DNA from: an uncultured Lachnospiraceae bacterium
GTDB lineage: Bacteria > Bacillota > Clostridia > Lachnospirales > Lachnospiraceae
Direction: 5' to 3'
Assembly: GCA_947178125.1 (NCBI GenBank)
Contig: CAMWXB010000020.1
Span: 1 to 54,851 of the forward strand
Length of the DNA: 54,851 nucleotides
The number at the start of each line of letters is the position of its first letter. The stretch's first letter is position 1. Position numbers and translations under genes: made by a program. Under the pieces are notes generated by a model. It did not search any database and was not told the DNA's origin. It was given only the letters and a program-made list of their open reading frames with translations. Of this stretch, positions 32,540-50,191 are shown one piece after another.

Positions 32540-32592
32540 TTTTGGAGAAGTAACTGACAATCAACGACAATCACGAAATGGAGGAAATCATA

Positions 32593-33970: not shown

Positions 33971-34053
33971 GTTAATTTCCTCCTTGGATTGGCGCGGAGG
34001 AAATCCGCATAGCGATATTCGATTTTGAGTGCCTTTAATAGATGGCTATTCAT
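33850..34053 (-). CDS. Possible small ORF overlapping the sigma-like gene start
   Basis: A 67-codon frame whose first 28 codons precede the sigma-like gene and whose remainder overlaps its 5' end in another frame. ATG at 34053 follows AGGAGG at seven bases, a better site than chance. MNSHLLKALKIEYRYADFL is not recognised. The 120-base overlap makes a real protein doubtful; it may be a translational leader. Confidence 0.3.
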   Translation of the reverse strand: MNSHLLKALKIEYRYADFLRANPRRKLTWHVKQITVTHRSTATAVRLTATPLNQARFWFPSGKISTI

Positions 34054-34498
34054 TTCGGATTCCTCCTAGTTTGCAATAGCCAGCTGCCCTATTAGGCTGG
34101 TTTTGGATTGTATGTGTTTGCCTGATCCGGATAGGGCCACTCTTGATCAGGGAGCGCCGAGACCGGACAAACAAGCATATTTCTTATGCTCAGATGTATT
34201 ATGGCAAAAAATAAAATGAAAACCCTGGACACAGGTGTGTCCTATTTTGAGTCTGAAATTGAGTAGAAAAGATGGATTGATCTGCGGTATCTCAGATGCT
34301 TCAAGCATAAGGCGACCGGACATGGTCGTGTCCGGTAGGGTAGAAAAATTATTTGGTGACTTGTCAAGGATTATAAATAAAGGGAAATGGTAGATAAATA
34401 TAAACAAATAACAACAAAATGCTTGCGAATCTGGTAACGCGGATGTATACTAATGATGGTTTACTATGTCTATTTGAAAGCAGAACGAGGAAGAAGAG
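34054..34498. promoter_or_regulatory. Control region between divergent sigma-like gene and defence operon
   Basis: No gene is seen in this 445-base gap. It has several inverted repeats: AGCATA/TATGCT (34174-34190), GGACAC/GTGTCC (34227-34242) and ACCGGACA/TGTCCGGT (34315-34336); the half-site ACCGGACA also occurs at 34162. Such repeated palindromic half-sites fit operator function for one of the two flanking HTH proteins. A clear -35/-10 pair for the operon was not found. Confidence 0.5.
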
Positions 34499-34696
34499 AT
34501 GGCGGATATCATTAACGATAAATGGATAAGCATGGAAGAAGCTGCTGAGTATCTGGGTATTAAACCTGTAACGCTTCGCGGTTGGATTCGGAACAAGAAA
34601 GACGGCATCCCTGCTAACAAGATTGGAAAGCAATGGAAGTTCAAGGTTTCTGAGCTGGACGAATGGGTAAAGAGCGGGAAAAGTGCTATCGATTGA
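34499..34696 (+). CDS. Helix-turn-helix (excisionase/MerR-like) protein
   Basis: A 65-residue protein: WISMEEAAEYLGIKPVTLRGWIRNKK, then GIPANKIGKQWKFKVSELDEWVKSG, the typical HTH_17/excisionase-like domain. It lies 47 bases upstream of hsdM on the same strand. Such small HTH proteins often precede type I and BREX-like defence genes and may control their expression, or act as a recombination directionality factor of the element. Start follows GAGGAAGAAGAG. Confidence 0.82.
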   Translation: MADIINDKWISMEEAAEYLGIKPVTLRGWIRNKKDGIPANKIGKQWKFKVSELDEWVKSGKSAID

Positions 34697-34743
34697 GAAC
34701 TGTGTGAGCGAAAACAAATGTCAATCTAAGGAGAAAAAAGCAA

Positions 34744-37425
34744 ATGGCGGTCAAGAAAACACAACTGTACGCATCGCTTTGGGCGAGCTGCGACAAACTT
34801 CGCGGAGGAATGGATTCGTCAGAGTACAAAGACTATATTTTGACGCTTCTGTTTATGAAGTATGTCACGGACAAATTTAAGAACAAGGGAGCCTATGAAG
34901 ATATTAAGGTCTTTGATAAGGCGCATGACAAAGATCCTGATCCGGACAAGAGAACAGGGTGTTCTTTTGATGACTTTATTGCTTTGAAGGGAAAGAAGAA
35001 TATCGGTGAAGGTATGGACAAGATAATTGCTCGCCTTGCCGATGAAAATACATATCTTAAGGGTGTTATTGATATCGCGCACTTCAATGATGAGAAGAAG
35101 CTGGGAAGCGGAAAAGAGATGGTGGATAAGTTGACGGATCTTATCTCTATATTTCAGCGTCCAGAACTGAAATTCTCCAAGAACAAGGCAGAGGGAGATG
35201 ACATTATCGGAGATGCCTATGAGTACCTGATGCGGAAGTTCGCAACAGAGAGCGGAAAGAGCAAGGGACAATTCTATACGCCGGCAGAGGTTTCGAGAAT
35301 CCTTGCTAATGTTGTAGGTATCAGTCGTTGCACAGATCCCAGTGCTACGGTATGTGATCCTGCTTGCGGAAGTGGCAGCCTTTTGATCAGGGCTATTGAT
35401 GCAGCGCCGTTTCCAATTATGGGCTGCGGTCAGGAAAAGGAAAGTACAACCGCCGGTCTTGCCAAGATGAATGCGGTTTTGCACCGTAAAGCTGAGATTA
35501 CAATTAAGAGTGGGAACACATTCTCCAATCCTCGGTATCTCGATAAATCCGATAATTCTATCCTTGAACGATTCGATTATATAGTAGCGAATCCGCCATT
35601 TTCTATGAAAAATTGGCGCGATGGTATTGCTGGAAAAGAATATGGCCGGTTTGAGGGTTACGGTGATATGCCACCGGAGAAGAATGGCGATTATGCTTGG
35701 CTCATGCATATCCTTAAGTCACTGAAGAACAATGGTAAGGCTGCCGTTATTCTGCCGCATGGAGTACTGTTCCGCGGAAATGCAGAAGCAACGATTAGGG
35801 AAACTATCATCAAGAAACACTGGATTAAAGGTATCATCAGTCTTCCAGCAAACCTGTTCTATGGTACCGGTATTGCAGCCTGTATACTTGTAATTGATAA
35901 GGAAGGCGCGGCGAACAGACAGGGAATTTTTATGATCGATGCCAGTCGGGGATATGTTAAAGACGGTAATAAGAATCGTCTCCGTGAACGTGATATCTAT
36001 AGGATTATCACGACCTTTAACGAGCAGATTACAACAGATCCAAAGTATGCTCGTTTCGTGCCGAACGATGAGATTGAGAAGAAGAATGAATACAATCTCA
36101 ATATCACGAGATATATTGATTCTACAGATCCGGAAGATATTCAGGATATCTACGCTCATATTCATGGTGGTATTCCGGCAGTGGATATAGAAGGTCTTTC
36201 AAAATACTGGGAGGTATTTCCATCATTAAAGATGGAGTTGCTGTCTGCAATCAGTGAGAAGTATTACAGCCTGAATGTGGAGCATGACAATATCCGTCAG
36301 ACAATCTATAAGAACGTGGAGTTCTCTAAATACGGTGAGAAGCTTGATGAAGCTTTTGCTGCATGGAAAGCCAAGGAATACCCTGTACTGTCTTCGTTGG
36401 ATGAAGATGTATCTACAAGGGAGCTAATCGCTAGTCTTGCGGAAGACATTTTGGTTGAATTTGAGCACCTGACATTGACCGATAAATATGATGTTTATCA
36501 GGTTTTGCTGGCATATTGGAATGAAGTCATGAACGATGATGTTTCGCTGATCATCAGTGAGTCGGATGGGTATGATAATGCCAGGGCAACAGATAACATT
36601 GAGGAAGAAGTCACACAGGGTAAGAATAAAGGGGAAATGAAGATTACCGGTTGGGAAGGCCGATTGATTCCGAAGTCCATTGTCATCAATGCCTTTTTCC
36701 GTGAAGAAAAGGACGCTATTGAAGAAGCAGAAAATGTAGTGGCAGAAACGGAATCTCTACTTACAGATCTCATTGAAAGTGCAGAGGAAGAATCCGTACT
36801 TGCTGATGTATCAGAAAACGGGAAGGTAAAGGCAAAGGATATTGAAGCCAAGATTGATGAGTTGACCAGCACAATAGAAACAGAAGAGACGATTGAGCTT
36901 GAAGTAATCAGGATGGATCTCCATCTTGTAAATACAAAGAAGAGACTGGAAGCATATCTCTTGGAGCATCCATTATGTAAGAGTGCGGTTAATGAGAATG
37001 GAAAGATCACAAAAGCATCCATCGAATATAGGCTTCGCATTATCCGTACGGAAGAAAGTGTGCCAGAGAGCTTACAAGAAGATGTGAATCAACTAAAGAC
37101 CGCATTGGATTTATGCGGCAAAATATCTGATTACAATAGAGTTGTTAAGGAACTGAACAAGGCACTAGATGAAAAATGCAGGGCAGGGTATGAGACACTT
37201 ACTGATGAGGAAATATTGGATCTTTTGGTGAATAAAAAGTGGTTTGACAGTATATTTATAGGCATAGCCGATTTATATGCCGCCATATCACATCGTTTAA
37301 CCAATCGAATCGTTGAACTCGCAGAGCGATATGATAATACGCTTCCATCGCTTGAAAAAACTACAGCTGAGCATGAGACCAAGGTGAAGTCTCATCTGGA
37401 AAGGATGGGATTCAAATGGGATTAA
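34744..37425 (+). CDS. hsdM: Type I restriction-modification methyltransferase subunit HsdM, with long C-terminal extension
   Basis: The 893-residue N6-adenine methyltransferase subunit starts with an HsdM_N helical domain (residues 5-150). The catalytic domain has FYTPAEVSRIL (173-190), SAM motif I DPACGSGSLL (205-214) and catalytic NPPF (283-286). Classical HsdM is about 500-550 residues; here about 380 more follow, rich in Glu/Lys with coiled-coil character and a YNLNITRYID segment at the junction. Modifies DNA when combined with HsdS. Start 34744 follows AAGGAG. The stop overlaps hsdS by ten bases, so they are translationally coupled. Confidence 0.93.
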   Translation: MAVKKTQLYASLWASCDKLRGGMDSSEYKDYILTLLFMKYVTDKFKNKGAYEDIKVFDKAHDKDPDPDKRTGCSFDDFIALKGKKNIGEGMDKIIARLADENTYLKGVIDIAHFNDEKKLGSGKEMVDKLTDLISIFQRPELKFSKNKAEGDDIIGDAYEYLMRKFATESGKSKGQFYTPAEVSRILANVVGISRCTDPSATVCDPACGSGSLLIRAIDAAPFPIMGCGQEKESTTAGLAKMNAVLHRKAEITIKSGNTFSNPRYLDKSDNSILERFDYIVANPPFSMKNWRDGIAGKEYGRFEGYGDMPPEKNGDYAWLMHILKSLKNNGKAAVILPHGVLFRGNAEATIRETIIKKHWIKGIISLPANLFYGTGIAACILVIDKEGAANRQGIFMIDASRGYVKDGNKNRLRERDIYRIITTFNEQITTDPKYARFVPNDEIEKKNEYNLNITRYIDSTDPEDIQDIYAHIHGGIPAVDIEGLSKYWEVFPSLKMELLSAISEKYYSLNVEHDNIRQTIYKNVEFSKYGEKLDEAFAAWKAKEYPVLSSLDEDVSTRELIASLAEDILVEFEHLTLTDKYDVYQVLLAYWNEVMNDDVSLIISESDGYDNARATDNIEEEVTQGKNKGEMKITGWEGRLIPKSIVINAFFREEKDAIEEAENVVAETESLLTDLIESAEEESVLADVSENGKVKAKDIEAKIDELTSTIETEETIELEVIRMDLHLVNTKKRLEAYLLEHPLCKSAVNENGKITKASIEYRLRIIRTEESVPESLQEDVNQLKTALDLCGKISDYNRVVKELNKALDEKCRAGYETLTDEEILDLLVNKKWFDSIFIGIADLYAAISHRLTNRIVELAERYDNTLPSLEKTTAEHETKVKSHLERMGFKWD

Positions 37426-38690
37426 AAAACTCAAAGGCAGGAATGATTCCTGAAGAGTGGGATGTTCAGAATTTCTCTGACACGTTTCGCATTCTGAATA
37501 ACAATACTTTTTCTCGTGCAGAGCTCAATTATGCCAGTGGCCCATTCAAGAATATACATTATGGGGATGTGTTGATTCTTTTTCCGGAGGTGCTTGATTG
37601 TACCAGAGATGATGTTCCTTTCATCAATGAAGAAGCTAGGATATCTGGATCTGCACAAACTCTTCAGGATGGGGATATAGTAATGGCTGATACCGCAGAG
37701 GATGAGACTGTTGGCAAAGTTACAGAGGTGATGAATACTTCAAGAAAACCAGTCATGGCGGGTCTGCATACAATAGCCTGTAGGGTAAAGTCTGGAGAGT
37801 TTGTACCTAAGTGGCTTGGCTATTATATGAACTCACACTTATACCATGATCAGCTTCTTCCATATATTCATGGTACAAAAGTTTCTTCGGTTTCAAAGGG
37901 ATCTTTGGGAGATACTGCAATAATTGTTCCGTCCCCAAAAGAGCAAGAAAGAATAGTAGAGGCTTTGTTTGATATTGACAATCTGATTACAGATTTAAGT
38001 AGGCTGATTAGAAAGAAGAAAGATATTCGCCAAGGCACGTTGCAATTACTTGTGACGGGAAAGCAACGCTTGAATGGATTCGACGATGAGTGGATAACAC
38101 AACCTCTCGAAAAATTATGCGAATTAATAACTGATGGTTCACACGAAAGCCCAGCAGAGTGCATGGATGGGTTTTATATGCCGTCAGTTAAAGATATGAC
38201 AGATAATGGGTTTGATTTCACGGATTGCAAGAGGATTTCAAAATATGATTATGAGAGACTTTTGGCAAATGGATGCAAACCTGAGATCGGAGATGTCTTA
38301 ATCGCAAAAGACGGGTCAATGTTGAAATATGTATTTCCAGTTAAAGAAAACAGTAACATAGTTATTCTTTCATCAATCGCAATATTAAGACCTAAGAAAA
38401 ACATACTTAATAGTTCGTATTTAACATATTACTTTCGTCAGCCGCGATTTGTTGAACATGTGATAAATAGTAACCAAACAGGAACAGGCGTGCCTAGAAT
38501 TGTGCTAAAAAACTTTAAAAAAATTGAGTTGCATATTCCAAGAGACAGCAAGGAACAAAAAGCTATTGCTGACATTCTGGCAGACATGGACGTAGAGATT
38601 TGGTCTCTGGAGAAAAAAGTAAAGAAGGCTGCGGCGGTAAAGCAAGGTATGATGGAAGAATTACTGACCGGTAAGGTCAGGCTGGTATAA
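37416..38690 (+). CDS. hsdS: Type I restriction-modification specificity subunit HsdS
   Basis: The 424-residue protein has two target-recognition domains joined by conserved helices. TRD1 runs from about residue 8 to 165 and is followed by the helical SPKEQERIVEALFDIDNLIT repeat. TRD2 runs from about 215 to 365 and is followed by IPRDSKEQKAIADILADMD. The matching halves IVEALFDID and AIADILADMD are the central and distal spacers that set the gap between half-sites. Recognition sequence cannot be read from sequence. Its start overlaps the hsdM stop. Confidence 0.93.
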   Translation: MGLKNSKAGMIPEEWDVQNFSDTFRILNNNTFSRAELNYASGPFKNIHYGDVLILFPEVLDCTRDDVPFINEEARISGSAQTLQDGDIVMADTAEDETVGKVTEVMNTSRKPVMAGLHTIACRVKSGEFVPKWLGYYMNSHLYHDQLLPYIHGTKVSSVSKGSLGDTAIIVPSPKEQERIVEALFDIDNLITDLSRLIRKKKDIRQGTLQLLVTGKQRLNGFDDEWITQPLEKLCELITDGSHESPAECMDGFYMPSVKDMTDNGFDFTDCKRISKYDYERLLANGCKPEIGDVLIAKDGSMLKYVFPVKENSNIVILSSIAILRPKKNILNSSYLTYYFRQPRFVEHVINSNQTGTGVPRIVLKNFKKIELHIPRDSKEQKAIADILADMDVEIWSLEKKVKKAAAVKQGMMEELLTGKVRLV

Positions 38691-38705
38691 GGAGGTGTTT
38701 GTTAG

Positions 38706-41700
38706 ATGAGTATTGGCGATGCTGAAATCAAAACGCAGGAAAGAGTAATCAACTTCTTTAAGGATCCGGAGATATTAGGATATCAGTATATAGGCAATCT
38801 GTCTGATTTTCAGAATAAGAATATCAAAGAGGACAGACTTCGCCAGTATCTCCGTCTGAAAGGTTATGCCGACAAACTGATTGATGGCGCTGTTACGCAG
38901 CTTCAACAGGAAGCGGGTAATCTTTCACGAGGTCTGTATGATGCCAACAAAACAGTCTATTCTCGCTTGAAGTATGGTATTCCTGTTAGTGAGAGTCCTG
39001 AAAAGGCTCCGGTGACTGTGCAGCTCATTGATGAGGATAATCCGCTGAATAACGATTTTGCTATCGCTGAGGAAGTGACGGTTGTTGAACAATCTGAGAA
39101 GCGACCGGATCTTGTCATTTATCTGAATGGCGTGGCTGTGGCAGTTATTGAACTGAAACGAAGCAGCATATCCGTATCGGAAGGAATCCGTCAGAACCTG
39201 ACCAATCAGAAGAATTCATTCATCCAAGGGTTCTTTTCTACTATGCAATTCTGTATGGCCGGAAACGAGTCCGAGGGGTTGCGCTATGGCACACTTCTGA
39301 CCGGCGAGAAGTTCTACATGGAATGGAAGGGTGACGGCTTCAAGGAACATCAGGAAGAACGTGATCCGGTGGATGTTCGTATCAGTGAAAAATGCGAGAC
39401 CATAGAGAACAAGCTCCTAAAACAGATTTATGCAATGTTCGATAAAGAGCGTTTCATCGATCTCATCATGAATTTTGTTGTCTTTGACAAGGGAATTAAA
39501 AAGGTATGCCGATATAATCAGTATTTCGGTATTAAGCGGACAGAGCAGAGACTCAGCAATCTGAGAACAGAACTTCATAATCTGAATCGCGACCAGGATA
39601 AGCCGCTGGGCGGTATTCTTTGGCATACCCAAGGCTCCGGAAAAACGCTGACTATGGTTTGGCTTGCCAAGTGGATCCTGACTCATTGGGAAGAGCTAAA
39701 TGCCCGTGTTCTTATTGTAACAGACAGAGATGAACTGGATGAGCAGATAGAAAAGACATTCACCGGGGTGGATGAGAATATAGTTCGTACCAAGAGCGGG
39801 AAGGATCTGCTGAACCGACTGAACGTTTATGATGATTCGTTGATCTGTTCTCTTGTTCACAAGTTTGGTCGCCGTGGAGGCGAAGCCACCGAGAATGATT
39901 ATGACAAATATATCGAAGAACTGAAGGCATCACTTCCGGCAGATTTTGAGGCAAAAGGCAATCTGGTTGTGTTCGTTGATGAATGTCACAGAACGCAGTC
40001 AGGAAAGCTTCATACCGCTATGAAGACCATTATGCCGAATGCGGTGTTTATTGGTTTTACCGGAACGCCGCTTTTAAAGAGAGACAAGAAGATCAGCATA
40101 GAGGTATTCGGTACATATATTCATGCGTACAAATATAACGAGGGCGTAGCCGATGGAGTAGTGCTGGATCTTCGATATGAATATAGAGATGTTCCGCAGG
40201 ATTTGTCTTCACAGGACCGTGTTGATCAATGGTTTGATGTAAAAACCAGAGGCTTGTCATCTCGTGCAAAGGCAAAGCTGAAAGAGAAATGGGGAACAAT
40301 GCAGAAGGTTTACAGCTCGCGTTCCCGTCTTGAAAAGGTGGCATGGGATATCATCCAGGATTTCAATATGAAGCCGCGCCTCATGGATGGTAATGGAAAT
40401 GCCATTCTTGTTGCTGACTCCATTCCGACAGCCTGCAAGTACTATGAAATATTCCAGCAGATGGGAGTTAAGAAGTGTGCAATTATATCGTCCTATACTC
40501 CAAACAAGGGTGAGCTGCGCACAGATACTGTCAGTGATGAAGATGATACTGAGACATTCCTAAAATATGAAACTTATCTCAAAATGCTTGGCATTGATCC
40601 CGCCAACATTCCGAATGCCGGATCAATCCAGACAAAAGTAGAAGAATTTGAGAAAGAAGCAAAACGGAAATTTGTGGAAGAGCCTGCAAATATGAAGCTG
40701 CTTATAGTCGTAGATAAGCTGCTCACCGGATTCGATGCTCCGCCGTGCACATATCTGTATGTTGATAAGAACATGCAGGATCACGGTCTGTTTCAGGCGA
40801 TTTGCCGTGTAAACCGTCTGGACGATGATTCCAAGGACTTTGGATATATCGTTGATTATAAACAGCTTTTCGGTAAGCTTCAGACGGCAATGAAGGATTA
40901 TACATCCGGTGCCTTTGAAGGTTATGATCCTGAAGATGTAAAAGGACTTGTGAAAGACCGTCATGATGAGGCTATCGCATATTTTGATGAAGTGTATGAT
41001 GCGGTAGAAGAATTATGTGAGGGTGTGGAGGAACCCCGTGGAGAGATCCAGTATATCCATTATTTCTGTGGAGTTTCCGGTCAGTCGGAAGAAAGTGATG
41101 AGATATATGCGCGCCTCAGAGAAAAACTCTATAGATTGGTGAGCAGTCTTGTCAGAGCCTTTGCCGAGGCTAAGCCGTATCTGGTTGATGATATTTCCAC
41201 CGGTAAGTTGAATGAATACGACAAGAAGGTCACGTTTTATATTGAGCTAAAGAAGACGATAGGAACAGCAAGCGGTGACTTCTTGGATCTGAAGGCATAT
41301 GAGCCAGACATGAGGAAGATGATCGACAACTATATTACTGCAGCGGATGCAGAGAAGATTGGCGATTTTGATGATCTTACCCTGCTGGATTTTGTAGCAA
41401 AACAGGGAGAAACGCTTACCGGAGAAGGTGACAACGGGCACAAGGAAGGTGCGGCGGAAGCCATCGAAAACAATATTCGTAAGAAGGTCATTGAAAAGGT
41501 TACCGTCAATCCGAGATATTATGCAAAGATGTCAGAGATTCTCGATAAGCTTATTGAGGAAAGACGCCAAGGAGTACTTGACTATGCAGAGATGCTTGAG
41601 AAATATATCAAGCTGGCCAAGGATGTAGATTGTCCTGAAGAAAATGATAAATATCCTGAGAGCATCCGTAAGAGTAAGGCACTTATGGCAATTTACGACA

Positions 41701-41885
41701 ACACAGGTGAAGATGAAAAGCTTGCCATCAAGATCCACAAGGCGGTAAAGAAGCAGGCACTGTCAGGCTTTAGAGATAATCAGGTAGTTATCAGAAGAAT
41801 AAAGAAAGCACTCTATGAGATTTTGGGTGATGATTCCGAGGTGGAGCGCATCTACAAGATTATTGAGAAGCAGGAGGAATTCTAA
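38706..41885 (+). CDS. hsdR: Type I restriction endonuclease/translocase subunit HsdR
   Basis: The 1059-residue protein holds a PD-(D/E)xK nuclease near the N terminus (PDLVIY at 134-139, IELK at 148-151). The motor follows with Walker A HTQGSGKTL (307-315), DEAD-box motif DECHRT (425-430), SAT-like GFTGTPL and a motif VI-like region HGLFQAICRVNRL. The C-terminal 250 residues are helical and contact HsdM. It pulls DNA and cuts unmodified DNA at a distance. Start follows GGAGGTG at eight bases; the stop overlaps the next start (TAATG). Confidence 0.95.
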   Translation: MSIGDAEIKTQERVINFFKDPEILGYQYIGNLSDFQNKNIKEDRLRQYLRLKGYADKLIDGAVTQLQQEAGNLSRGLYDANKTVYSRLKYGIPVSESPEKAPVTVQLIDEDNPLNNDFAIAEEVTVVEQSEKRPDLVIYLNGVAVAVIELKRSSISVSEGIRQNLTNQKNSFIQGFFSTMQFCMAGNESEGLRYGTLLTGEKFYMEWKGDGFKEHQEERDPVDVRISEKCETIENKLLKQIYAMFDKERFIDLIMNFVVFDKGIKKVCRYNQYFGIKRTEQRLSNLRTELHNLNRDQDKPLGGILWHTQGSGKTLTMVWLAKWILTHWEELNARVLIVTDRDELDEQIEKTFTGVDENIVRTKSGKDLLNRLNVYDDSLICSLVHKFGRRGGEATENDYDKYIEELKASLPADFEAKGNLVVFVDECHRTQSGKLHTAMKTIMPNAVFIGFTGTPLLKRDKKISIEVFGTYIHAYKYNEGVADGVVLDLRYEYRDVPQDLSSQDRVDQWFDVKTRGLSSRAKAKLKEKWGTMQKVYSSRSRLEKVAWDIIQDFNMKPRLMDGNGNAILVADSIPTACKYYEIFQQMGVKKCAIISSYTPNKGELRTDTVSDEDDTETFLKYETYLKMLGIDPANIPNAGSIQTKVEEFEKEAKRKFVEEPANMKLLIVVDKLLTGFDAPPCTYLYVDKNMQDHGLFQAICRVNRLDDDSKDFGYIVDYKQLFGKLQTAMKDYTSGAFEGYDPEDVKGLVKDRHDEAIAYFDEVYDAVEELCEGVEEPRGEIQYIHYFCGVSGQSEESDEIYARLREKLYRLVSSLVRAFAEAKPYLVDDISTGKLNEYDKKVTFYIELKKTIGTASGDFLDLKAYEPDMRKMIDNYITAADAEKIGDFDDLTLLDFVAKQGETLTGEGDNGHKEGAAEAIENNIRKKVIEKVTVNPRYYAKMSEILDKLIEERRQGVLDYAEMLEKYIKLAKDVDCPEENDKYPESIRKSKALMAIYDNTGEDEKLAIKIHKAVKKQALSGFRDNQVVIRRIKKALYEILGDDSEVERIYKIIEKQEEF

Positions 41886-44437
41886 TGCGCATTGTCATCT
41901 CCGGGATACCGATTGATGTACAAAAAAAGAATATAAAGAACATGCATCTTCAGGTTAAACCTCCGGATGGGCATGTTGTTATTTCTGCGCCATTATCTGT
42001 GGATGACAAGGCGATAGAGGCATATGCCAGAACACAGCTTGGCTTCATCAAGAGGTCCATTGCTCAGTTCCAGGATCAGCCGAGGGCATCAAAAAGGCAG
42101 TATGTTTCCGGCGAGACTATGTACATATGGGGAAAACAATATTTCTTTGTTTTTAAGGCGGATAATCAGAAGAACAGCTTTGAGATCGACAACCAGAATG
42201 TCATCCTTTCCATGAGCGGCAAAAGTACCGTAAAACAGAGGGATGGATATGTAAAAGAAGAGTATCGGAAGATCTTAAAGGAAGAGATTGAAAAGCGCCT
42301 CCCGAAGTGGGAAGAAATAACCGGGCTGAAGTGTGATTCATGGCAGACCAAATACATGGTTACCAAATGGGGCGCATGCAGTACGGATAAGAAGAAGCTA
42401 TGGTTCAATCTGCAGCTGGCTCAGAAACCTGTGGTTTGTCTGGACTATATAATCCTGCATGAGCTGACACACCTCATTACCCGGAAGCATGATTCTGTCT
42501 TTATTGCTCATATGGACAGATATATGCCTAACTGGAGGGAAGTCAGGAAAGATCTGAACGATGGCCGTCTGGATTACTATGAAGCACAGGACGAAAGTCC
42601 TCTTCAGAAGCTGATAGATCAATCCAGATATGATGATATACGGGATGCGGTACTTGCTTATATTCAAGAGGATCATTCTGGAGAAGCAAAAAAGCCGATT
42701 GTTGCAGATGTCGAAATTGAAAATGTAATTCATATAGAGCAGCCGGAAGAAGGAATCATTTCTTTTGATGTTATAGTCTCATGTGATATGGAGATGCCGT
42801 CAGCATCAAAGAAGGGATACTTTGGTGAACGCTGGCTAAAAATCCATTGCCAGGTCGTACTCGGCATTGACATGAGCGGATTCAGGATCATCGGGATAGG
42901 TAATTGTGATCCGCAGGAAGAATCTGATAATGACAGGTTATCCGGTGAACTGGTTCCGATCATTTCCCGTGACCAGTTTGAAAAAGAAGCGGAGAGATTC
43001 CTTGAAAGATATTGCCCGGAGGCGTTAGAAAAACCGATATGTCTCCCTATAGATCAGATAGCTGAGGATATGAAACTGAAAGTGGTAGAGGACACCCCGC
43101 TTTCAGATGAGCTGACATACTTTGGAACTGTTGTATTTGATGACGGAAACATTCTTGATAAGCACAGGAAGATAACAATCCGCAATGCCAAAAGAGGGAC
43201 GCTTTACCTTGATCCGAGGGTTCCCTATGAGAGATCTGTTGGAACGAGAAGAACAACACTGGCTCATGAATGTTTCCATTGGCACAGGCATCAGCCGTAT
43301 CATGTCCTAATGAGAATGATCGGCGCCGATGACAATCTGGGCAGAGCGATTCAATGCCAGATAGCTGCCGGGACTACGGATTCTGACAAATGGAAAGCTG
43401 TAGATTGGATGGAGTGGCAGGCCAAAGGGGTTGCTCCTAAGATCCTGATGCCTGAAAAAACTGTGCGACCGCTTGTGGACAGGCTACTGGTTGAATACTC
43501 CGGTAATGATCAGGTGTCAGTTGCTTCATTTGAGAGGGTTATTGATGTTCTGGCCGAGACATATGATGCATCGCGTCAGGCTGCTAAAGTCCGTCTCGTT
43601 GAACTGGGTTACACCAAGGCGGAGGGAGCCTATCCATATGTTAATGGCAAATATGTCAGCGGATATTCGTTCGATGCCGATGCCCTTGAAAAAGATCAGA
43701 CATTTACGATTCCGTATGCGGATCTCCTGAAAGCTTACTGCTATGACAGAGAATTCCGAAAACTAATTGATGCTGAGAAATTCAGGTACATAGATGGCCA
43801 TGTGTGCCTGAATGAAGATAAATATATTGTCCGTGATGATAACGGGATGGTTTCTCTGAGCGGCTATGCCGTCAATCATATCGATGAATGCTGCCTTGTA
43901 TTTACGAGAGGGTACAGTTATCAATCCAGGTACCAGGGACTTAAGAACTATGCGTTCTTCATGCGTAATTCGGCACCTCAGGAAGATCAGATCGAGTTTT
44001 CATTTGAGCTGAATAAGCACAATAAGACATTGCTGGCTCAAATACAGAACGCAGGGAAAAGTGCGTCAGCCCTGCAGCGGTATCCCGGATCGTTTTCGGA
44101 GACGCTTGTGCATCTGATGAAAGATAAAAAGCTGTCGGCAAAGAAGCTTGCCGATGGATCTTTGGTCGGTGAGAAGACAATTCAGCGATTGAGAAATAAT
44201 GAAGAGTATCCGACGACAAAGCAGACTGTTTTGGGATTATGCTACGGCTTGAAGCTGACAATACCAGAGGCAGAGATGTTGTTGGGAAAAACGGAGTTTA
44301 GCCTGAAGAGTACAACGCCGGAAAATAATGCTTATCGCTGTACGCTTGGATCATGCGCGGAGTTGAGTATATACGAGGTTAATGAGATGCTGGTGGCGAA
44401 CGGGTATTTGCCGTTTGGAAGTTCGCCGGCGGAATAA
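41885..44437 (+). CDS. Dual zinc-protease fusion: YgjP-like (DUF45), ImmA/IrrE-like, plus C-terminal HTH
   Basis: The 850-residue protein joins separate modules. Residues 1-230 match YgjP/DUF45 zinc peptidases: TKWGACSTDKKKLWFN and YIILHELTHLITRKHDSVF, with the HELTH zinc motif at 192-196. Residues about 385-530 match ImmA/IrrE: TRRTTLAHECFHWHRHQ (HECFH at 461-465) and WMEWQAKGVAPKILMP. The C terminus (about 740-800) reads like a small XRE-type helix-turn-helix (LVHLMKDKKLSAKKLADGSLVGEKTIQRL). YgjP proteins often neighbour type I systems; ImmA-type proteases cut repressors in phage and mobile elements. It follows hsdR with a one-base overlap. An autoregulated repressor-cleaving role is inference. 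Confidence 0.8.
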   Translation: MRIVISGIPIDVQKKNIKNMHLQVKPPDGHVVISAPLSVDDKAIEAYARTQLGFIKRSIAQFQDQPRASKRQYVSGETMYIWGKQYFFVFKADNQKNSFEIDNQNVILSMSGKSTVKQRDGYVKEEYRKILKEEIEKRLPKWEEITGLKCDSWQTKYMVTKWGACSTDKKKLWFNLQLAQKPVVCLDYIILHELTHLITRKHDSVFIAHMDRYMPNWREVRKDLNDGRLDYYEAQDESPLQKLIDQSRYDDIRDAVLAYIQEDHSGEAKKPIVADVEIENVIHIEQPEEGIISFDVIVSCDMEMPSASKKGYFGERWLKIHCQVVLGIDMSGFRIIGIGNCDPQEESDNDRLSGELVPIISRDQFEKEAERFLERYCPEALEKPICLPIDQIAEDMKLKVVEDTPLSDELTYFGTVVFDDGNILDKHRKITIRNAKRGTLYLDPRVPYERSVGTRRTTLAHECFHWHRHQPYHVLMRMIGADDNLGRAIQCQIAAGTTDSDKWKAVDWMEWQAKGVAPKILMPEKTVRPLVDRLLVEYSGNDQVSVASFERVIDVLAETYDASRQAAKVRLVELGYTKAEGAYPYVNGKYVSGYSFDADALEKDQTFTIPYADLLKAYCYDREFRKLIDAEKFRYIDGHVCLNEDKYIVRDDNGMVSLSGYAVNHIDECCLVFTRGYSYQSRYQGLKNYAFFMRNSAPQEDQIEFSFELNKHNKTLLAQIQNAGKSASALQRYPGSFSETLVHLMKDKKLSAKKLADGSLVGEKTIQRLRNNEEYPTTKQTVLGLCYGLKLTIPEAEMLLGKTEFSLKSTTPENNAYRCTLGSCAELSIYEVNEMLVANGYLPFGSSPAE

Positions 44438-44493
44438 TGACAGTTTAATTGTGCATGAGAATGCAAGAAAATCGATAAAGGGAGAATGATAGC

Positions 44494-46305
44494 ATGGCAA
44501 TTAATATAGCGCCCAAGTCTTTGGATACAGAACTGAGCGAGCTGATGCGCGATGTTACATCAGGTAAGGCGCAGCTACCGGAGTTCCAGCGTAGCTGGAC
44601 TTGGGATGATGGGCGTATCAGAGGTATTTTGGCGAGCCTTTCACAAGGATATCCTATGGGTGCGATTATGCGCCTGGAATGCGGGAATGAAAATGTGAAG
44701 TTCAAATATCGACCGATTGAGGGTGTGAGGAATGTTACAGTAGCGCCGGATTATCTTATTCTTGACGGGCAGCAGCGCCTTACTTCTATGTATCGCACCA
44801 CATGCTCAATCGATGCGGTTCTCACCAAAACTGACAAGGGCAAGGAAATAAAAAGGTTCTATTATCTTGACATGAAGAAATGCTTGGACGATAACGAGGA
44901 TCGTTATGATGCTATCGTTCCGGTTCCGGAAGACAGAAAAGTAAAAACGGATTTTAATCGAAAGGTGCTTCTGGATCTTTCGACAAAGGAACTGGAATAT
45001 GAAAACGAGATGTTTCCGATCAATATTATCTTTGATGGAAGTGCACGTGAAGATTGGGCTGACGGTTACAAGGAATATCATGAGTATGGTAAGGAATTCA
45101 TGGAACGCTACAAGCAGTTCCGTACGGAAGTCATTGAGACTATTACCGGTTATAAACTCCCGGTGATTACGCTTGGAAGAGAGACACCGCGTGAAGCTGT
45201 ATGTAAGGTATTTGAGAATGTGAATACCGGCGGTGTTGCGTTAACAGTATTTGAGCTGGTTACGGCGACCTTTGCAACTTATGAATTCGATCTAAGAAAA
45301 GACTGGGAAGAGTGCAGAGATATTATCTGGGGTAAGAATGAGCCGCTGAATACAGATGTTATGAAGGGTGTTGATGAAACGGCATTCTTAACAACAATTA
45401 CACTTTACACCAGTTATTTTGCTGAGACGGCTACAACCTGTAAGAAGAAGGATGTTTTGGGACTGGAATTTGAATCATATCAAGCAAACAAGGCTGCGGT
45501 TCTTGAAGGCTATAAGATGGCAAGAAAATTCCTGTTTAGTCAGTATGTTTTCAGAATGAGAGATCTTCCGTATACTACTCAGCTTGTCCCTCTTGCTGCC
45601 ATATGTGCTGCAATCGGCAAGAGCAGCTTTAATCTTCCTCAGACTCAGAATATTCTTTCGCGCTGGTTCTGGTGCGGAATAATGGGCGAGATGTATGGTG
45701 GCGCAAACGAGACAAGGTTTGTAAATGATATAGAGGATGTCGTTGCTGCAATTCAGGGTAAAGAAAGTCAGAACCGTACTATCAATGCTTCATATTTTTC
45801 AGCCACAAGACTGATGTCCCTGCAAACCAGAAACAGTGCAGCATACAAGGGAATAATGGCTCTTGTATATCGTGAGAGTTGCAGAGATTTTATGAAGGGC
45901 ACCACAATGGATATCGTTAAGAGTATGGATGAATCTCCAGATATCCATCACATCTTCCCGGAAGCATACTGTATCAAGCAGGGATATCCGAAAGCCAGGT
46001 GGAATTCAATTATCAATAAGACTCCGCTGCTCCCGGAATCTAATCGCCAGATCGGCGGGGAGGCTCCGAGCAAGTACAGTCAGAAGATTATGAAGGCTGC
46101 GCAAATTGATGAGGAACAGCTGAAATCCAGAGTAGAATCGCACCTTGTAAACTACGATGCATTCATCAATGATGATTTTGACACATACTTCATTGATAGA
46201 GCCAAGACCATTATGACAGTAATTGAGGGAGCTATGGAGAAGACTATATCAGATAAAGGATCTGAGCAGACGATTAACAGTTACGGGGTAAGTTTGGAAG
46301 AATAG
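44494..46305 (+). CDS. DUF262 / HNH (DUF1524-like) protein, GmrSD type IV restriction-like
   Basis: The 603-residue protein begins with a DUF262 (ParB/sulfiredoxin-like NTPase) domain: QLPEFQRSWTWDDGRI at 27-42 and LILDGQQRLTSMY at 88-100, the hallmark. The C-terminal part has SPDIHHIFPEAYC (near residues 481-493) and a following NSIINKTPLLPESNRQIG, as in DUF1524 HNH nucleases. GmrSD of E. coli combines these two domains to cut glucosylated, modified phage DNA using nucleotides. The order within the type I operon suggests a second barrier against modified phages. Start 44494 follows AAAGGGAGAAT. Confidence 0.85.
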   Translation: MAINIAPKSLDTELSELMRDVTSGKAQLPEFQRSWTWDDGRIRGILASLSQGYPMGAIMRLECGNENVKFKYRPIEGVRNVTVAPDYLILDGQQRLTSMYRTTCSIDAVLTKTDKGKEIKRFYYLDMKKCLDDNEDRYDAIVPVPEDRKVKTDFNRKVLLDLSTKELEYENEMFPINIIFDGSAREDWADGYKEYHEYGKEFMERYKQFRTEVIETITGYKLPVITLGRETPREAVCKVFENVNTGGVALTVFELVTATFATYEFDLRKDWEECRDIIWGKNEPLNTDVMKGVDETAFLTTITLYTSYFAETATTCKKKDVLGLEFESYQANKAAVLEGYKMARKFLFSQYVFRMRDLPYTTQLVPLAAICAAIGKSSFNLPQTQNILSRWFWCGIMGEMYGGANETRFVNDIEDVVAAIQGKESQNRTINASYFSATRLMSLQTRNSAAYKGIMALVYRESCRDFMKGTTMDIVKSMDESPDIHHIFPEAYCIKQGYPKARWNSIINKTPLLPESNRQIGGEAPSKYSQKIMKAAQIDEEQLKSRVESHLVNYDAFINDDFDTYFIDRAKTIMTVIEGAMEKTISDKGSEQTINSYGVSLEE

Positions 46306-46329
46306 TGAATCTATAGCATGTGAGGTAAC

Positions 46330-48432
46330 ATGGAAGAAACAAACTTGAAGCAGGTGCTGAAGGAATGTAATAAGTCGGCTAAGACTGGATATAAAATAGT
46401 TTCAGCACAAGAAAAGAATTTGAATAGGGCGCTGGCTTCGGCACAAGAGAAAGTACAGAGCACCATTATCGATTTCAATAGTTCTCCGTGTTATGCACCG
46501 GAGGCTACAGAACTATTGGAAGTACAGTTGGTGGAGATCAGAGATGCGTTCAATCGTCTGTCATTCGCTTTTAAGGAGGACCTGCAAAACCTAAGAGAGA
46601 ATCTGTCAATGTTTTCTGTAACGCTTTTTGGAAGGACTATGGCTGGTAAATCCACGCTTATGGAGATTTTGACCGAAGGGGATGGTTCGTCTATCGGAAA
46701 AGGATCTCAGCGTACAACCAGGGACGTTCGCAAGTATACGTGGAATGGACTTGAAATCACCGACGTTCCGGGAATTGGTGCTTTTGAAGGTGAAGATGAT
46801 GAACAGATTGCGTTTGAAGCGGCTAAGACAGCCGATCTGATCTTGTTCCTGATCACAGATGATGCACCGCAGGTCGCGGAAGCCGATTGCCTTAGTAGAA
46901 TTGTGAACCTTGGAAAACCGATCATATGTATCATGAATGTCAAGGCTTCTATAGCAGAGGATAAGAGCTTGAAGCTGGCATTGCGAGATGTAAACAAACG
47001 CTTTGATATGGAGCGACTTGATAAGATACGAAATCAATTTCTACTGTTTTCAGAACAGTTTGGACAAACATGGAGTCATATACCTTTTGTATATGTCCAT
47101 CTCAAATCTGCTTATGCTGCTCTAAAAGCGGAGAATCCGGAAAAAAGCAGAAGCTTTCATGAAGTAAGCCGGATTGATTATCTAAAAAGAAGAATTGTAG
47201 AGCAGGTTAGAACGAAGGGTGAGTTCTATAGAATAAAGACTTTCATAGATATTATTTCAAATCCGATACTTGAATCTATGGAAAATCTTTTGGAACAAAG
47301 CCAGATAAATAGCGTCCAGGGAAGGACGATCCTTGCAAAAAAGAGGCAACTTGGAGATTGGAAGAATGTCTTCTATCGAGATGGGAAGGCACAGATCAAA
47401 ACGCTGATTGTAAAGATAAAGAGCGAGCTGAATGGAGAGATAGCTGCGTTCGCTGAAGATCATTTTGATGATAAAAATGCGGATAAAGCATGGAATAAGC
47501 TATTGAAATCGCGGAAAGTGGAAGTTCGGTGTCAGGAATTACTTGAGGACTTGGAAGCAAAAAGTAACGATAAGCTCAAAGAGATTTCCAGAGAAATAAC
47601 GAATGAGTTGAAGTTCGCCACATCCTTTGAAGGTGATAAATCCCTCCGTATGCATAAGATCATTGATGGAAAAAAACTTTGGGATTGGTCATCGATTGCT
47701 TTGGGCGGTGGTTTATCTATAGCAGCCGGAATTGCATATTTAGTTGGTGCTGCGGCAGCAGGCCCGTTAGGATGGGCGGCATTAGCTGTATCTGTGATAG
47801 GGATAGGCGGCTCTTTCCTGTTTAAGAGTAGGGATAAAAAAGAATTTGAAGCAAGAACACGGCTTGAGAAGAAGCTTAGGGAGAATGTAGCTCAGATATG
47901 TGATACTCTTGAAAAGCAGATGAATAAGAATCTGGATTCGCTTGTATCGGTTAGAATTGAAGGGCTAATGACAGAAATGGATAAAATCAATTCCGTCATA
48001 TTCCGGTTAGCTGATACACAGAAAGAGCTGGCATGGGGATTGAATAACCATATGCTGGAACTGAATAATCAGATTTTGACGGAGGCAATACGTCTGATAG
48101 GTGCTGAGGGATTGCAGTATCATGTACAGTCAGTTGCAAGGATTCCTGGAAATACAAGCCTGATTCTACTCAACGATGGGACGGTTTTTCCTAAAGAACA
48201 GAAGGAAGACCTATATAAACTGATGGCTGAACGAATCGGTTTTGTATATGATTCTGACAATAAGAGGGTGCTAATATCAAGAGTTTTAGGCAGAGATATT
48301 GATAGGAACCTGATAAATATTGAAGATAAAATCGGAGTGGCACATATACCCTTGGGTGATGCTACGCCGAATATGAAAAATAGAGTACGTTTGGCACAAC
48401 AGTTTTCAAGACTGTTAATAATGAATGAGTGA
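46330..48432 (+). CDS. Dynamin-like GTPase, first of a pair (LeoBC/Eleos-like)
   Basis: The 700-residue protein has G1 GRTMAGKS (101-108), G2 TT (129-130) and G3 DVPGIG (145-150). G4 is degenerate: NVKA at 203-206 instead of NKxD. A helical N-terminal stretch (1-95) precedes the G domain, and coiled coils follow. Two hydrophobic segments near residues 450-500 (LGGGLSIAAGIAYLV and ALAVSVIGIGGSFLF) form a membrane-inserting hairpin like the paddle of bacterial dynamins. The size resembles LeoBC of the Eleos anti-phage system; the identity is by pattern. It is followed by a partner GTPase whose start overlaps its end. Confidence 0.75.
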   Translation: MEETNLKQVLKECNKSAKTGYKIVSAQEKNLNRALASAQEKVQSTIIDFNSSPCYAPEATELLEVQLVEIRDAFNRLSFAFKEDLQNLRENLSMFSVTLFGRTMAGKSTLMEILTEGDGSSIGKGSQRTTRDVRKYTWNGLEITDVPGIGAFEGEDDEQIAFEAAKTADLILFLITDDAPQVAEADCLSRIVNLGKPIICIMNVKASIAEDKSLKLALRDVNKRFDMERLDKIRNQFLLFSEQFGQTWSHIPFVYVHLKSAYAALKAENPEKSRSFHEVSRIDYLKRRIVEQVRTKGEFYRIKTFIDIISNPILESMENLLEQSQINSVQGRTILAKKRQLGDWKNVFYRDGKAQIKTLIVKIKSELNGEIAAFAEDHFDDKNADKAWNKLLKSRKVEVRCQELLEDLEAKSNDKLKEISREITNELKFATSFEGDKSLRMHKIIDGKKLWDWSSIALGGGLSIAAGIAYLVGAAAAGPLGWAALAVSVIGIGGSFLFKSRDKKEFEARTRLEKKLRENVAQICDTLEKQMNKNLDSLVSVRIEGLMTEMDKINSVIFRLADTQKELAWGLNNHMLELNNQILTEAIRLIGAEGLQYHVQSVARIPGNTSLILLNDGTVFPKEQKEDLYKLMAERIGFVYDSDNKRVLISRVLGRDIDRNLINIEDKIGVAHIPLGDATPNMKNRVRLAQQFSRLLIMNE

Positions 48433-48442
48433 GGTGAAGGCT

Positions 48443-50146
48443 ATGTTTAGAATTGCTGGATTTGCTCAAAGAAGCATAGAATTGAAAGAAAAGGCGCGTG
48501 CTGCGTTACTATCTGCAGGTGTAGATATACAGATTCGAGATAATAAATCTGATGCTATACGGCTGGTGTTTGCGGGTCAGTATAGCGCCGGGAAGTCGTC
48601 TATATTGAAGATGCTTACAGGTAGAGCAGATATAGCGATTGGTGCAGATATTACAACGCAGCAGGCGCATACATATGATTGGAATGGTATTGAGGTGGTG
48701 GATACTCCGGGTATTCATACACAGCTTAGACCGGATCATGATGAGATATCTTATGATGCCATTGCTTCGGCTGACATGCTGGTATTTGTTGTCACTAATG
48801 AACTATTTGATTCTTATATGGCTGATCATTTCAGAAAGCTTGCTATCGATAAGGACAAAGCCGGCGAAATGATTCTTGTTGTTAATAAGATGGATAGAAC
48901 AGCGGAAGGTAACACCGGCGAACAGCAAAATATCATTCGCGAAGATTTGAAAAAAGTTCTGGAACCTTATACTCCGGAACAGCTTAATTTGTCTTTCCTG
49001 GATGCTGAATCATATCTTGAAAGCATCGAGGAGAGGGAGGAAGATCCAGAACTTGCCGATGAATTGGTGGCTCGTAGTGGTTATGCTCAGTTTATTGATA
49101 CTTTGAACCGCTTTGTTGAAGAGAAGAGCATTCCGTCAAAGCTTACAACAGAATTGTATGTTATCGATGATCGCTTGGAGAAGGCAATTAAGGAATTACA
49201 GCCGAAGGCATCCGATGCGGATATCGATGCTCTTGAAGAAAACTTTATGCAGCAAAGGCACTTGCTTATTGAAGCAAGAGGGCGTATGCAGCAGGAAGTA
49301 AAGGATATATATACCACAGCTGCATCTCAAATTCGTGATATAGGACTTGATGCAGCCAATCTTCTGGCAGATGGTTGTAAGCAGGATGAAGTCGAGGACG
49401 AACTACAGAAGTCAATTGGAAAAGCTGAGGATATTATTGAAAAGTGTCAGTCAGATGCAATAGAGGTAATTGACGCTCGCCTGAATGAGATGGGACAGCA
49501 GCTTGAAGTGATTGAAAATTCCGAATTTTCAAGAGACTTAAAGTCAAGACTGTCCGGTAAATTTGAAGGACTTCCTGAAGGTATACAGAAAATAATAGCA
49601 AATGCTGGTCCGGGCTTTCAGAAGGCTGGACAAGCGGTGCTGAATAATGCCTATAAAGCAGGAACGCAGGGAGGATTAAAGCTTACGAACTTCTCAGGAA
49701 GTACAATACATCAGATGGTATTAAAGGTTGGACACGGAGTAGGGTTCAAATTTAAGCCTTGGCAGGCAATAAAGATAACAAAAGGAATTGCTATTGGTGG
49801 ACAGGTCTTGAGCGCTTTGGGTGTTGGGTTCTCAGTATTTATGCAGATAAAAGCTGATCAGGACGAAGAACGTATTCGTGAAGATCTGAAGAACAATCGC
49901 CAAAACATAAGAAGTCAGTTCAATGTTGCGGCTAATAAATTGGAAGATTACGCACGTCAGTACATAAAGGATAATGTGAATCGTCCATTAGAGACATCCA
50001 TCGCAACGATCGATGGAAATATTCAGGAAATCCGAGACACAAGATTGAATAGAAGTGAGGCATGTCGTCAGTTAGAAGATCTTCAGAAAGAGTGTAGATT
50101 GTTGATTCAGGATATTCATTCTGAAAAAGAAATTGAAGAAGTATAA
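48443..50146 (+). CDS. Dynamin-like GTPase, second of a pair (LeoA/Eleos-like)
   Basis: The protein of about 567 residues has a canonical GTPase domain: G1 GQYSAGKSS (45-53), G2 TT (71-72), G3 DTPGIH (87-92), and intact G4 NKMD (148-151). Long helical segments follow. One hydrophobic stretch near residues 445-470 (GIAIGGQVLSALGVGFSVF) is likely a membrane contact. The length is close to ETEC LeoA (about 570). Start 48443 follows GAGGTGAAGG at six bases; an ATG at 48425 lacks a site. Pairs of dynamin-like proteins often form hetero-oligomers that act on membranes, in Eleos to halt phage. Terminator at 50152 ends the operon. Confidence 0.78.
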   Translation: MFRIAGFAQRSIELKEKARAALLSAGVDIQIRDNKSDAIRLVFAGQYSAGKSSILKMLTGRADIAIGADITTQQAHTYDWNGIEVVDTPGIHTQLRPDHDEISYDAIASADMLVFVVTNELFDSYMADHFRKLAIDKDKAGEMILVVNKMDRTAEGNTGEQQNIIREDLKKVLEPYTPEQLNLSFLDAESYLESIEEREEDPELADELVARSGYAQFIDTLNRFVEEKSIPSKLTTELYVIDDRLEKAIKELQPKASDADIDALEENFMQQRHLLIEARGRMQQEVKDIYTTAASQIRDIGLDAANLLADGCKQDEVEDELQKSIGKAEDIIEKCQSDAIEVIDARLNEMGQQLEVIENSEFSRDLKSRLSGKFEGLPEGIQKIIANAGPGFQKAGQAVLNNAYKAGTQGGLKLTNFSGSTIHQMVLKVGHGVGFKFKPWQAIKITKGIAIGGQVLSALGVGFSVFMQIKADQDEERIREDLKNNRQNIRSQFNVAANKLEDYARQYIKDNVNRPLETSIATIDGNIQEIRDTRLNRSEACRQLEDLQKECRLLIQDIHSEKEIEEV

Positions 50147-50151
50147 ATTTA

Positions 50152-50187
50152 TGCGGCCTCCGGCTATAAACCGGGAGCCGCTATTTT
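50152..50187 (+). terminator. Strong terminator ending the defence operon
   Basis: GCGGCCTCCGG (50152-50162) pairs with CCGGGAGCCGC (50170-50180), with one mismatch and one wobble, around a seven-base loop; TATTTTT follows. It lies between the convergent defence operon and the DNA polymerase gene. Confidence 0.85.
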
Positions 50188-50191
50188 TATG

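Follow-up and report, generated by a model that had tools for sequence, protein, structure and literature searches.

A type I restriction operon closed by a double-protease fusion and an exchangeable tail in a Lachnospiraceae prophage: a putative modular defence cassette

In the present study, we analysed a stretch of 54,851 nucleotides (nt) from an uncultured Lachnospiraceae bacterium (assembly GCA_947178125.1, contig CAMWXB010000020.1; hereafter the window) and found in it an operon in which a type I restriction-modification (R-M) system is followed by a fusion of two zinc proteases and then by further defence genes. Judged from sequence comparison, a core of five genes, coding for an HTH_17 leader, HsdM, HsdS, HsdR and the double-protease fusion, keeps the same order and a recognisable control region in several bacterial orders. 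This core ends in a slot at which the following genes are exchanged, and we regard such a modular anatomy as highly probable. The explanation that we favour, a modular cassette in which the fusion would serve as a damage-sensing controller of both the R-M genes and the tail, is held with evenly balanced confidence.

The five-gene core and its double-protease fusion

The core of the window lies on the + strand and opens with an HTH_17/excisionase-like leader of 65 amino acids (34499-34696), recognised from its open reading frame (ORF) and domain matches. It is followed by the N6-adenine methyltransferase HsdM (34744-37425; 893 amino acids, N6_Mtase/HsdM_N), the specificity subunit HsdS (37416-38690; 424 amino acids) and the translocase/endonuclease HsdR (38706-41885; 1059 amino acids, HSDR_N and SWI2_SNF2). 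The type I assignment is based on the methyltransferase motifs DPACGSG and NPPF in HsdM, two Methylase_S stretches in HsdS, and the GSGKT and DECH motifs in HsdR. Membership of the MADS systems was considered and rejected, as the NCBIfam models reached only 49.3 of 80 bits (MADS1), 46.3 of 720 (MADS2) and 31.6 of 400 (MADS5); PADLOC mad1, mad2 and mad5 also match, but for M and S the best type I models score higher.

The fusion gene (41885-44437, + strand; 850 amino acids) closes the core. Its product begins with a YgjP/SprT-like domain (residues 1-233, HELTH at 192; Pfam YgjP, 1.3e-52), continues with a CapP/IrrE-like domain (about 361-593, HECFH at 461; PADLOC CapP, 8.9e-10) and ends in a Cro/C1-type helix-turn-helix (HTH) at about 735-806. 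Thus, an HExxH motif is present both in the YgjP/SprT domain and in the M78 fold. Two Pfam models remained below their cut-offs (M78, 17.8 of 22 bits; HTH_26, 20.2 of 22 bits), and the search of the fusion sequence against the PDB gave two weak matches only, to unrelated proteins. The predicted fold supports the second protease domain and the HTH, and the domains resemble CapP/IrrE (7t5t), Spartan and R-M controllers.

For the collection of relatives, an alignment of the IrrE-like half was run against 84,980 species genomes, and the 80 best of 303 relatives were kept; a viral scan gave 206 relatives, again with the best 80 kept. From these, 28 other loci of the fused clade were examined (L058-L079, L082-L084 and L138-L140), among which near-duplicates are possible. 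The hsdM and hsdR genes precede the fusion in 22 of the 28; four of the other six have hsdR only (three contig ends and one truncated) and two start at or in the fusion. Intact HsdM and HsdR proteins of the core loci are 64-97% identical to those of the window, and HsdS is variable. Both HExxH motifs are retained in all 26 fused ORFs of at least 550 amino acids, whereas L078 and L082 carry a disrupted fusion gene. According to the record titles, the carriers are Lachnospiraceae, other Clostridia, an Erysipelotrichales bacterium and Olegusella. In addition, the HTH_17 leader is present in 17 of the 28 loci, and it accompanies LlaJI-type R-M elsewhere, for example in L036 and L118.

The exchangeable tail and the prophage around it

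In the window, the first tail gene codes for a DUF262/GmrSD_N protein (44494-46305; 603 amino acids, GmrSD_N 4.5e-28), followed by a LeoBC-like dynamin GTPase (46330-48432; 700 amino acids, PADLOC LeoBC 1.3e-97) and a LeoA-like dynamin GTPase (48425-50146; 573 amino acids, PADLOC LeoA 1.7e-121), all on the + strand. The DUF262 protein carries DGQQR at 91 and an HNH-like HHIFP at 485, which we take to be hallmarks of GmrSD/DUF262 proteins and which place it in the GmrSD type; Pfam GmrSD_C gave no match in it at 0.01, and its best PADLOC matches were PDC-M55C (1.1e-19) and HEC-05 (2.4e-18). The two Leo genes stand side by side and their products carry MMR_HSR1/DLP_helical domains, with G1, G3 and NKMD in the LeoA-like GTPase and with G1 and G3, but no canonical NKxD, in the LeoBC-like one. 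The NCBIfam LeoA subfamily model gave 91.3 of 325 bits with the LeoA of the window, under its cut-off.

According to the ORF coordinates, hsdM and hsdS overlap by 10 nt and the two Leo genes by 8 nt, the stop codon of hsdR shares 1 nt with the ATG of the protease gene (TAATG), and the remaining gaps are 47, 15, 56 and 24 nt. At the end stands the hairpin of an intrinsic terminator (50153-50181, + strand; -18.1 kcal/mol, z -3.0) with a T run behind it; it is absent from the list given by a consensus scan. We infer a single transcript for the operon. A sequence-only reading of this DNA had described six large genes on one strand, closed by a terminator, and its strand and position, the TAATG, the overlapping GTPase pair, the gaps of under 60 bases and the terminator agree with these coordinates. 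The number of genes has to be corrected to seven large ones plus the small HTH gene, and the hsdS ATG, which was placed within the hsdM stop codon, lies 7 nt before it.

The gene directly behind the fusion belongs to the DUF262 or the Mrr/PDC-S02 class of nucleases in 17 of the 29 loci, the window included. Nine loci have the DUF262 class (the window, L058, L059, L060, L067, L072, L074, L082 and L139) and eight the Mrr/PDC-S02 class (L061, L062, L063, L065, L066, L068, L073 and L077), at spacings from a 58-nt overlap to a 126-nt gap; short or other genes, no same-strand gene, or a contig end were found in the remaining twelve. The nuclease classes were taken from BLAST clusters, and PADLOC was run on L059, the second gene of L060, L061, L066, L067, L072, L077 and the window. 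Further tail matches were AbiU (L061), TmtA (L073), PDC-S11 (L066, L067) and, weakly, PDC-S21 (L060), and a PDC-M37B/DolB-like gene lies 1.2 kb behind the fusion in L064. At 1e-5, no PADLOC family was matched by the tail genes of L059 (362 and 587 amino acids), L138 (345), L140 (453), L083 (499) and L070 (358). The proposed stacking of type I R-M with a nuclease of the modified-DNA type is thus recurrent, and defence genes, established or candidate, also recur deeper in the tail as AbiU, TmtA and PDC families.

The borders of the tail were compared in 14 pairs of loci. In four pairs with fusion genes 91-94% identical and with different tails, the similarity ends no more than 11 nt from the fusion stop codon (at the stop in window/L059, at +11 nt in L061/L067 and L061/L074, at -4 nt in L061/L138). 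The tail or its first gene is common to window/L058, L061/L066, L061/L068 and L067/L074, the second tail gene is common to L066/L139, and L070/L071 are alike to about 55 nt beyond the stop. In the remaining pairs the identity is below 83%, and the similarity breaks off 4 to 137 nt ahead of the stop.

The two Leo GTPase genes form a module of their own. The Leo block of the window (46320-50601) was found in G134 at 83% nucleotide identity, with other genes before it and the same PolA gene end after it, and a part of the block (46320-50127) recurs in G003 after brxL. At the protein level, the Leo pairs behind unrelated genes (L222 and L223) are 91-96% identical to that of the window, and the one in L223 stands behind a BREX brxL. 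The full gene set of the window had no second occurrence among the examined loci; the nearest is L058, with DUF262, a 275-amino-acid LeoBC fragment and no LeoA. Among 299 Lachnospiraceae genomes, including that of the window, LeoBC was found in 3 and DUF262 in 6, and a match spanning both halves of the fusion in 1, which is the window's own. Viral contigs scanned singly with the DUF262 and LeoBC proteins gave no relative. These counts do not bear out the idea of one six-family system, conserved in order and co-occurring in Lachnospiraceae, for L058 alone among the 28 other loci has both DUF262 and LeoBC. A lack of co-occurrence bias, which was to speak against a joint system, is true of the Leo pair, but not of the core, nor of the core with its type IV-like nuclease.

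It could be argued that there is no functional unit at all, and that independent defence genes pile up in a prophage cargo site where they are co-read by chance. The Leo pair and DUF262 do recur separately, and the module borders lie between genes. Nevertheless, the five-gene core travels in one order with its control region through several bacterial orders, and in 17 of 29 loci the core is directly followed by a gene for a type IV-like nuclease, so that we consider a chance assembly improbable.

The cassette, in our reading a modular anti-phage one, is cargo of a rum-type prophage. A gene for a rum-like RNA U5-methyltransferase lies upstream, and PolA, DUF5688, an Enc34-type single-stranded DNA (ssDNA)-binding protein (SSB) and DUF2800 lie downstream on the opposite strand; this agrees with the phage-like element of the sequence-only reading, whose HTH leader is likewise found in the window. 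The PolA, SSB and DUF2800 proteins are 64%, 73% and 60% identical to those of the Streptococcus suis prophage MK359990, in which the cargo adjoins PolA. Phi-m46.1 is reported to integrate at the 3' end of rum (PMC4288039). The window was placed with the rum-site prophages of Phi-m46.1 type by the matching replication block and the nearby rum gene. Among the S. suis rum-site prophages (MK359990, MN270270), MK359990 has, like the window, a replication block with cargo beside it; the cargo of the Phi-m46.1/S. suis type is streptococcal and includes drug-resistance genes, whereas that of the window is a defence cassette. Genes of the same prophage type were within reach in 11 of the 28 other core loci. 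Between rum and the cassette, the window has a gene of the SymE-like toxin family (32578-32892; PF08845, 7.5e-14), which is present in L058 too. A sub-threshold match to the Rfam DUF2800 RNA (33998-34170, minus strand; 27.6 bits with a gathering threshold of 60.2, E 0.007) precedes a minus-strand gene of 239 amino acids that is not DUF2800, and lies beside the palindromes described below, not over them.

Control region, palindromes and stand-alone relatives

Two palindromes precede the operon in the window. Palindrome A (GGACAC-AGGT-GTGTCC, 34227..34242), a putative operator or terminator stem, is also found before hsdM in other core loci, and palindrome B (GGACAT-GGTC-GTGTCC, 34318..34333), a putative operator, lies 91 nt after A. 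They are followed on the + strand by the AAATATAAACAAATAACAACAAA element (34396..34418), which stands just upstream of the promoter and is recognisable in the aligned core loci. This element is A-rich with 10-bp repeats AAATAnnAAC, its strict pattern also occurs in L058, L070, L071, L075, L082 and L138, and it is a candidate site for the HTH_17 leader. The predicted promoter (TTGCGA-17-TATACT, 34423..34451, + strand) has 9 of 12 matches and a -10 box aligned across the core loci; the promoter scan gave 40 such sites in the region with 36.1 expected, which is not significant by itself.

The palindrome was first seen in the core control regions and then tested in other loci. In the core loci, a looser pattern with an inner length of 4-7 gave 33 sites in 18 of the 22 loci with hsdM, all with an inner length of 6, and 15 of the 19 core loci that bear palindromes (counting the window) have a pair 89-99 nt apart. 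Of the four palindrome-less core loci, L079, L083 and L084 lack the HTH_17 leader and have a fusion cut short ahead of the HTH; in the fourth (L139) the 5' part of hsdM fails to align. Since the three loci without the HTH lack the palindrome and L069, from which the leader is absent, keeps the pair, the palindrome tracks the C-terminal HTH and not the leader. Behind the stand-alone IrrE-like genes, GGACA-N(4-6)-TGTCC was found within 250 nt in 40 of 89 cases, whereas it occurred in only 2 of 1510 windows drawn at random from these loci and in none of 88 windows before the gene, and its inner length is 5 at all 57 sites of these loci. The locus has a palindrome in 46 of 82 stand-alone relatives with the HTH and in none of 7 without it (P 0.005). 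We infer a pairing of HTH and palindrome, for which the chances appear about equal either way.

The palindromes might instead act as terminators or insulators, as hairpins whose stem is conserved. In several loci a T run follows the left copy and an A run precedes the right copy, and the hairpins of the two window palindromes fold at -9.3 and -15.1 kcal/mol (the latter for palindrome B with flanks). However, the stem letters and the inner length are fixed across systems whose proteins are about 30% identical, which terminators do not need, and the HTH-less relatives are without palindromes (0 of 7). We regard this alternative as somewhat unlikely. No known Rfam RNA was found behind the palindromes at the gathering threshold in 7 loci.

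The control by the fusion of its own operon has to be weighed against several observations. The model of the fusion has a predicted template-modelling score of 0.49, so that the relative placement of its domains cannot be read from it. L079, L083 and L084 are alike and may represent a single loss. Among the 7 relatives without the HTH, several are fragments or short, and 36 of the 82 relatives with the HTH have no palindrome in the locus. The stand-alone loci usually have their palindromes behind the gene and not at a promoter, and several palindromes precede T runs and may be terminator stems. A stricter version of the palindrome gave 19 sites, spread over 16 of the 299 genomes, and its reversed pattern was found in 29 genomes; only 4 of the 19 sites are about 2 kb or less from a protease relative (three in G054, one in G074). 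Because the sites are sparse and the reversed pattern is commoner, the link of the palindrome is local to the gene and is not a genome-wide enrichment. DUF2800 phage loci give a weak contrast only: 4 of the 16 that have the gene contain a palindrome, as do 6 of the 63 that lack it. Finally, some S. suis prophages have the protease without an annotated neighbouring R-M gene.

The stand-alone IrrE-like relatives follow R-M genes of types I-III in 46 of 63 clusters, and R-M is downstream in 5 of 79. The profiles for R-M detection were seeded from proteins of these loci and orphan methylases were counted; leaving out the 13 seed loci lowers the figure to 33 of 50. In 10 of the 17 clusters without R-M, one upstream gene was scanned, and PglZ, GmrSD and McrBC were found in three; the other seven genes matched no defence family. 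One relative (L041:7700-9586, minus strand) has a GGDEF-like stretch (RIGGDEF, DINNLKYVNDRFGH) in place of the C-terminal HTH, adjoins LlaJI-type R-M and had no palindrome in its locus. L097 and L154 are exceptions to the R-M association. In L097, a gene for a Y-family (ImpB/MucB/SamB) polymerase stands upstream of the IrrE-like gene, and L154 has an ORF of equal size.

An ImmA/ImmR-like role of the IrrE-like protein as a prophage regulator, with the R-M genes merely inserted at the phage cargo site, would also account for a part of these data. Many stand-alone copies lie just before the DUF2800-SSB-PolA block, some of them with palindromes in between, the S. suis copies without annotated R-M fit this role, and ImmA/ImmR governs a mitomycin C-induced integrative element (PMC10233336). 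Against it, no more than 16 of the 79 phage loci of this type, many of which are short, have the gene, and thus it looks like cargo rather than core; the R-M genes are almost exclusively on its 5' side, and in the fused clade it is the last gene of the R-M core, with the palindromes ahead of that operon. We hold this role to be unlikely by a good measure. Crude methylase counts in the DUF2800 phages were discarded as unusable, since many loci have methylase genes at the opposite end.

Another alternative is restriction alleviation, in which the double protease would guard the host and the prophage from their own HsdR. Upon damage, or once a new host has been entered, it would bind DNA-engaged HsdR or exposed ssDNA and block or degrade the enzyme. 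The fusion gene directly overlaps hsdR, a stand-alone YgjP gene follows hsdR in L053, L054, an E. coli plasmid and a Pseudomonas plasmid, and ClpXP, which degrades HsdR (PMC12707154), acts in this way on EcoKI. ArdC, an ssDNA-binding protein with a Spartan/IrrE-like metalloprotease domain, acts against HsdRMS, but its protease site is dispensable for this activity (PMC7213743). Moreover, the IrrE-like relatives also follow type II and III systems without HsdR, and the HTH with its linked palindrome points to transcription control. With about 1.5 kb of flank covered, hsdR was found in only 2 of 15 YgjP-only loci, so that there is no general tie between YgjP and type I R-M. We consider restriction alleviation rather doubtful. 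In the E. coli IncY plasmid NZ_CP148442 (L308), hsdR is preceded by two DUF262 genes and directly followed by one for a YgjP/SprT protease; the same search also matched 355 Klebsiella plasmid records.

Known systems and the proposed mechanism

The principle of complementary restriction, type I with type IV included, is already known from two systems. Vibrio cholerae VPI-2 has, like the window, type I R-M and a GmrSD-family system (TgvAB) in one cluster, both of them reported to be active (PMC11411939), and pEFER combines a modification-based system, BREX, with the GmrSD-family type IV enzyme BrxU for complementary protection (PMC8565348). The type IV genes of VPI-2 are inside the hsd genes, whereas the window has a single DUF262 gene after them, behind the double protease; no mention of a protease, metalloprotease or SprT was found in the VPI-2 report. 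The likeness to pEFER, which has BREX and not type I R-M, concerns the joining of the two systems. The RptR island of enteropathogenic E. coli also has a small regulator gene first, type I R-M and an extra defence module (DarTG2), with a small repressor and direct repeats in the promoter (PMC12255303). Its extra genes lie between hsdS and hsdR, whereas those of the window stand behind hsdR and its leader is HTH_17/excisionase-like; no mention of a metalloprotease or YgjP was found in that paper. The dynamin-like LeoABC proteins of enterotoxigenic E. coli (PMC4159319) belong to the same LeoA and LeoB/C families, and the window has a phage-borne pair behind restriction genes.

Among the proteases, ArdC of R388 shares the Spartan/IrrE-like domain with the fusion and binds DNA, but it is the antirestriction protein of an incoming plasmid, whereas the protease of the window is built into a restriction operon (PMC7213743). 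PprI is activated by ssDNA or broken DNA (PMC10904395). PprI(IrrE)-DdrO of Deinococcus and CapP-CapH of CBASS (7t5t) are like the fusion in having a zinc protease of the same fold and a DdrO-like HTH, and to their palindromic operators the palindromes of the window may correspond. In the window, protease and repressor-type HTH are on one chain, a second protease is ahead of them and the neighbours are R-M genes. R-M controller (C) proteins such as C.BclI, C.AhdI and C.Esp1396I are small and stand-alone, whereas the HTH of the window is the tail of a protease. Such controllers bind paired palindromes before the R-M genes through a Cro/C1-type HTH; a predicted HTH of that fold and paired palindromes, its putative sites, were found in the window. 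In the open-access literature searched, which excludes preprints and most subscription journals, neither the double-protease fusion nor the slot was found described, nor was the IrrE-like family that is linked to R-M and to the palindrome; the controller and the slot look new.

In the mechanism that we favour, the type I system would cut unmodified DNA and the DUF262 protein would attack modified DNA, a complementary restriction that is rather probable, with the Leo pair as a possible membrane-acting last resort. The C-terminal HTH of the fusion would sit on the palindrome pair at the front of the operon and keep its expression low. Broken DNA or ssDNA from restriction or infection would activate the IrrE/CapP-like protease, and the Spartan-like protease might assist the cleavage of the HTH region, on the same or a sister chain. 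The operators would then be freed and the expression of R-M and tail would rise, the tail being a second line; this protease-driven derepression is possible, though short of an even chance. A further possible role of the Spartan-like domain, which lies beside HsdR, is to remove HsdR from DNA or to hold it in check there. The sequence-only reading had suggested that the protease/HTH could be a switch. The anatomy is switch-like, with an HTH, a linked palindrome and a supporting predicted fold, and the switching function is our proposal.

More broadly, we tentatively suggest, as something rather less probable than the pairing of HTH and palindrome, an undescribed class of restriction controllers, with a repressor HTH and an inactivating IrrE/CapP-type protease on one chain. 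It would be paired with GGACA-N5-TGTCC (N6 in the fused clade) and be common to all three types of R-M (I, II and III), chiefly among Bacillota and their prophages. In the case of the window, this controller is fused as well to a Spartan-like protease and stands exactly at the point of tail exchange, where broken DNA or ssDNA made by restriction may switch on whichever effector is plugged in. The slot behind the fusion is a place to seek new defence genes. To our knowledge, the silencing of phage-borne restriction in a lysogen or a new host, and its link to second-line defences, are poorly understood for Bacillota; as the family offers one protein, one defined site on the DNA and natural variants that have or lack the HTH, this question of control becomes testable.

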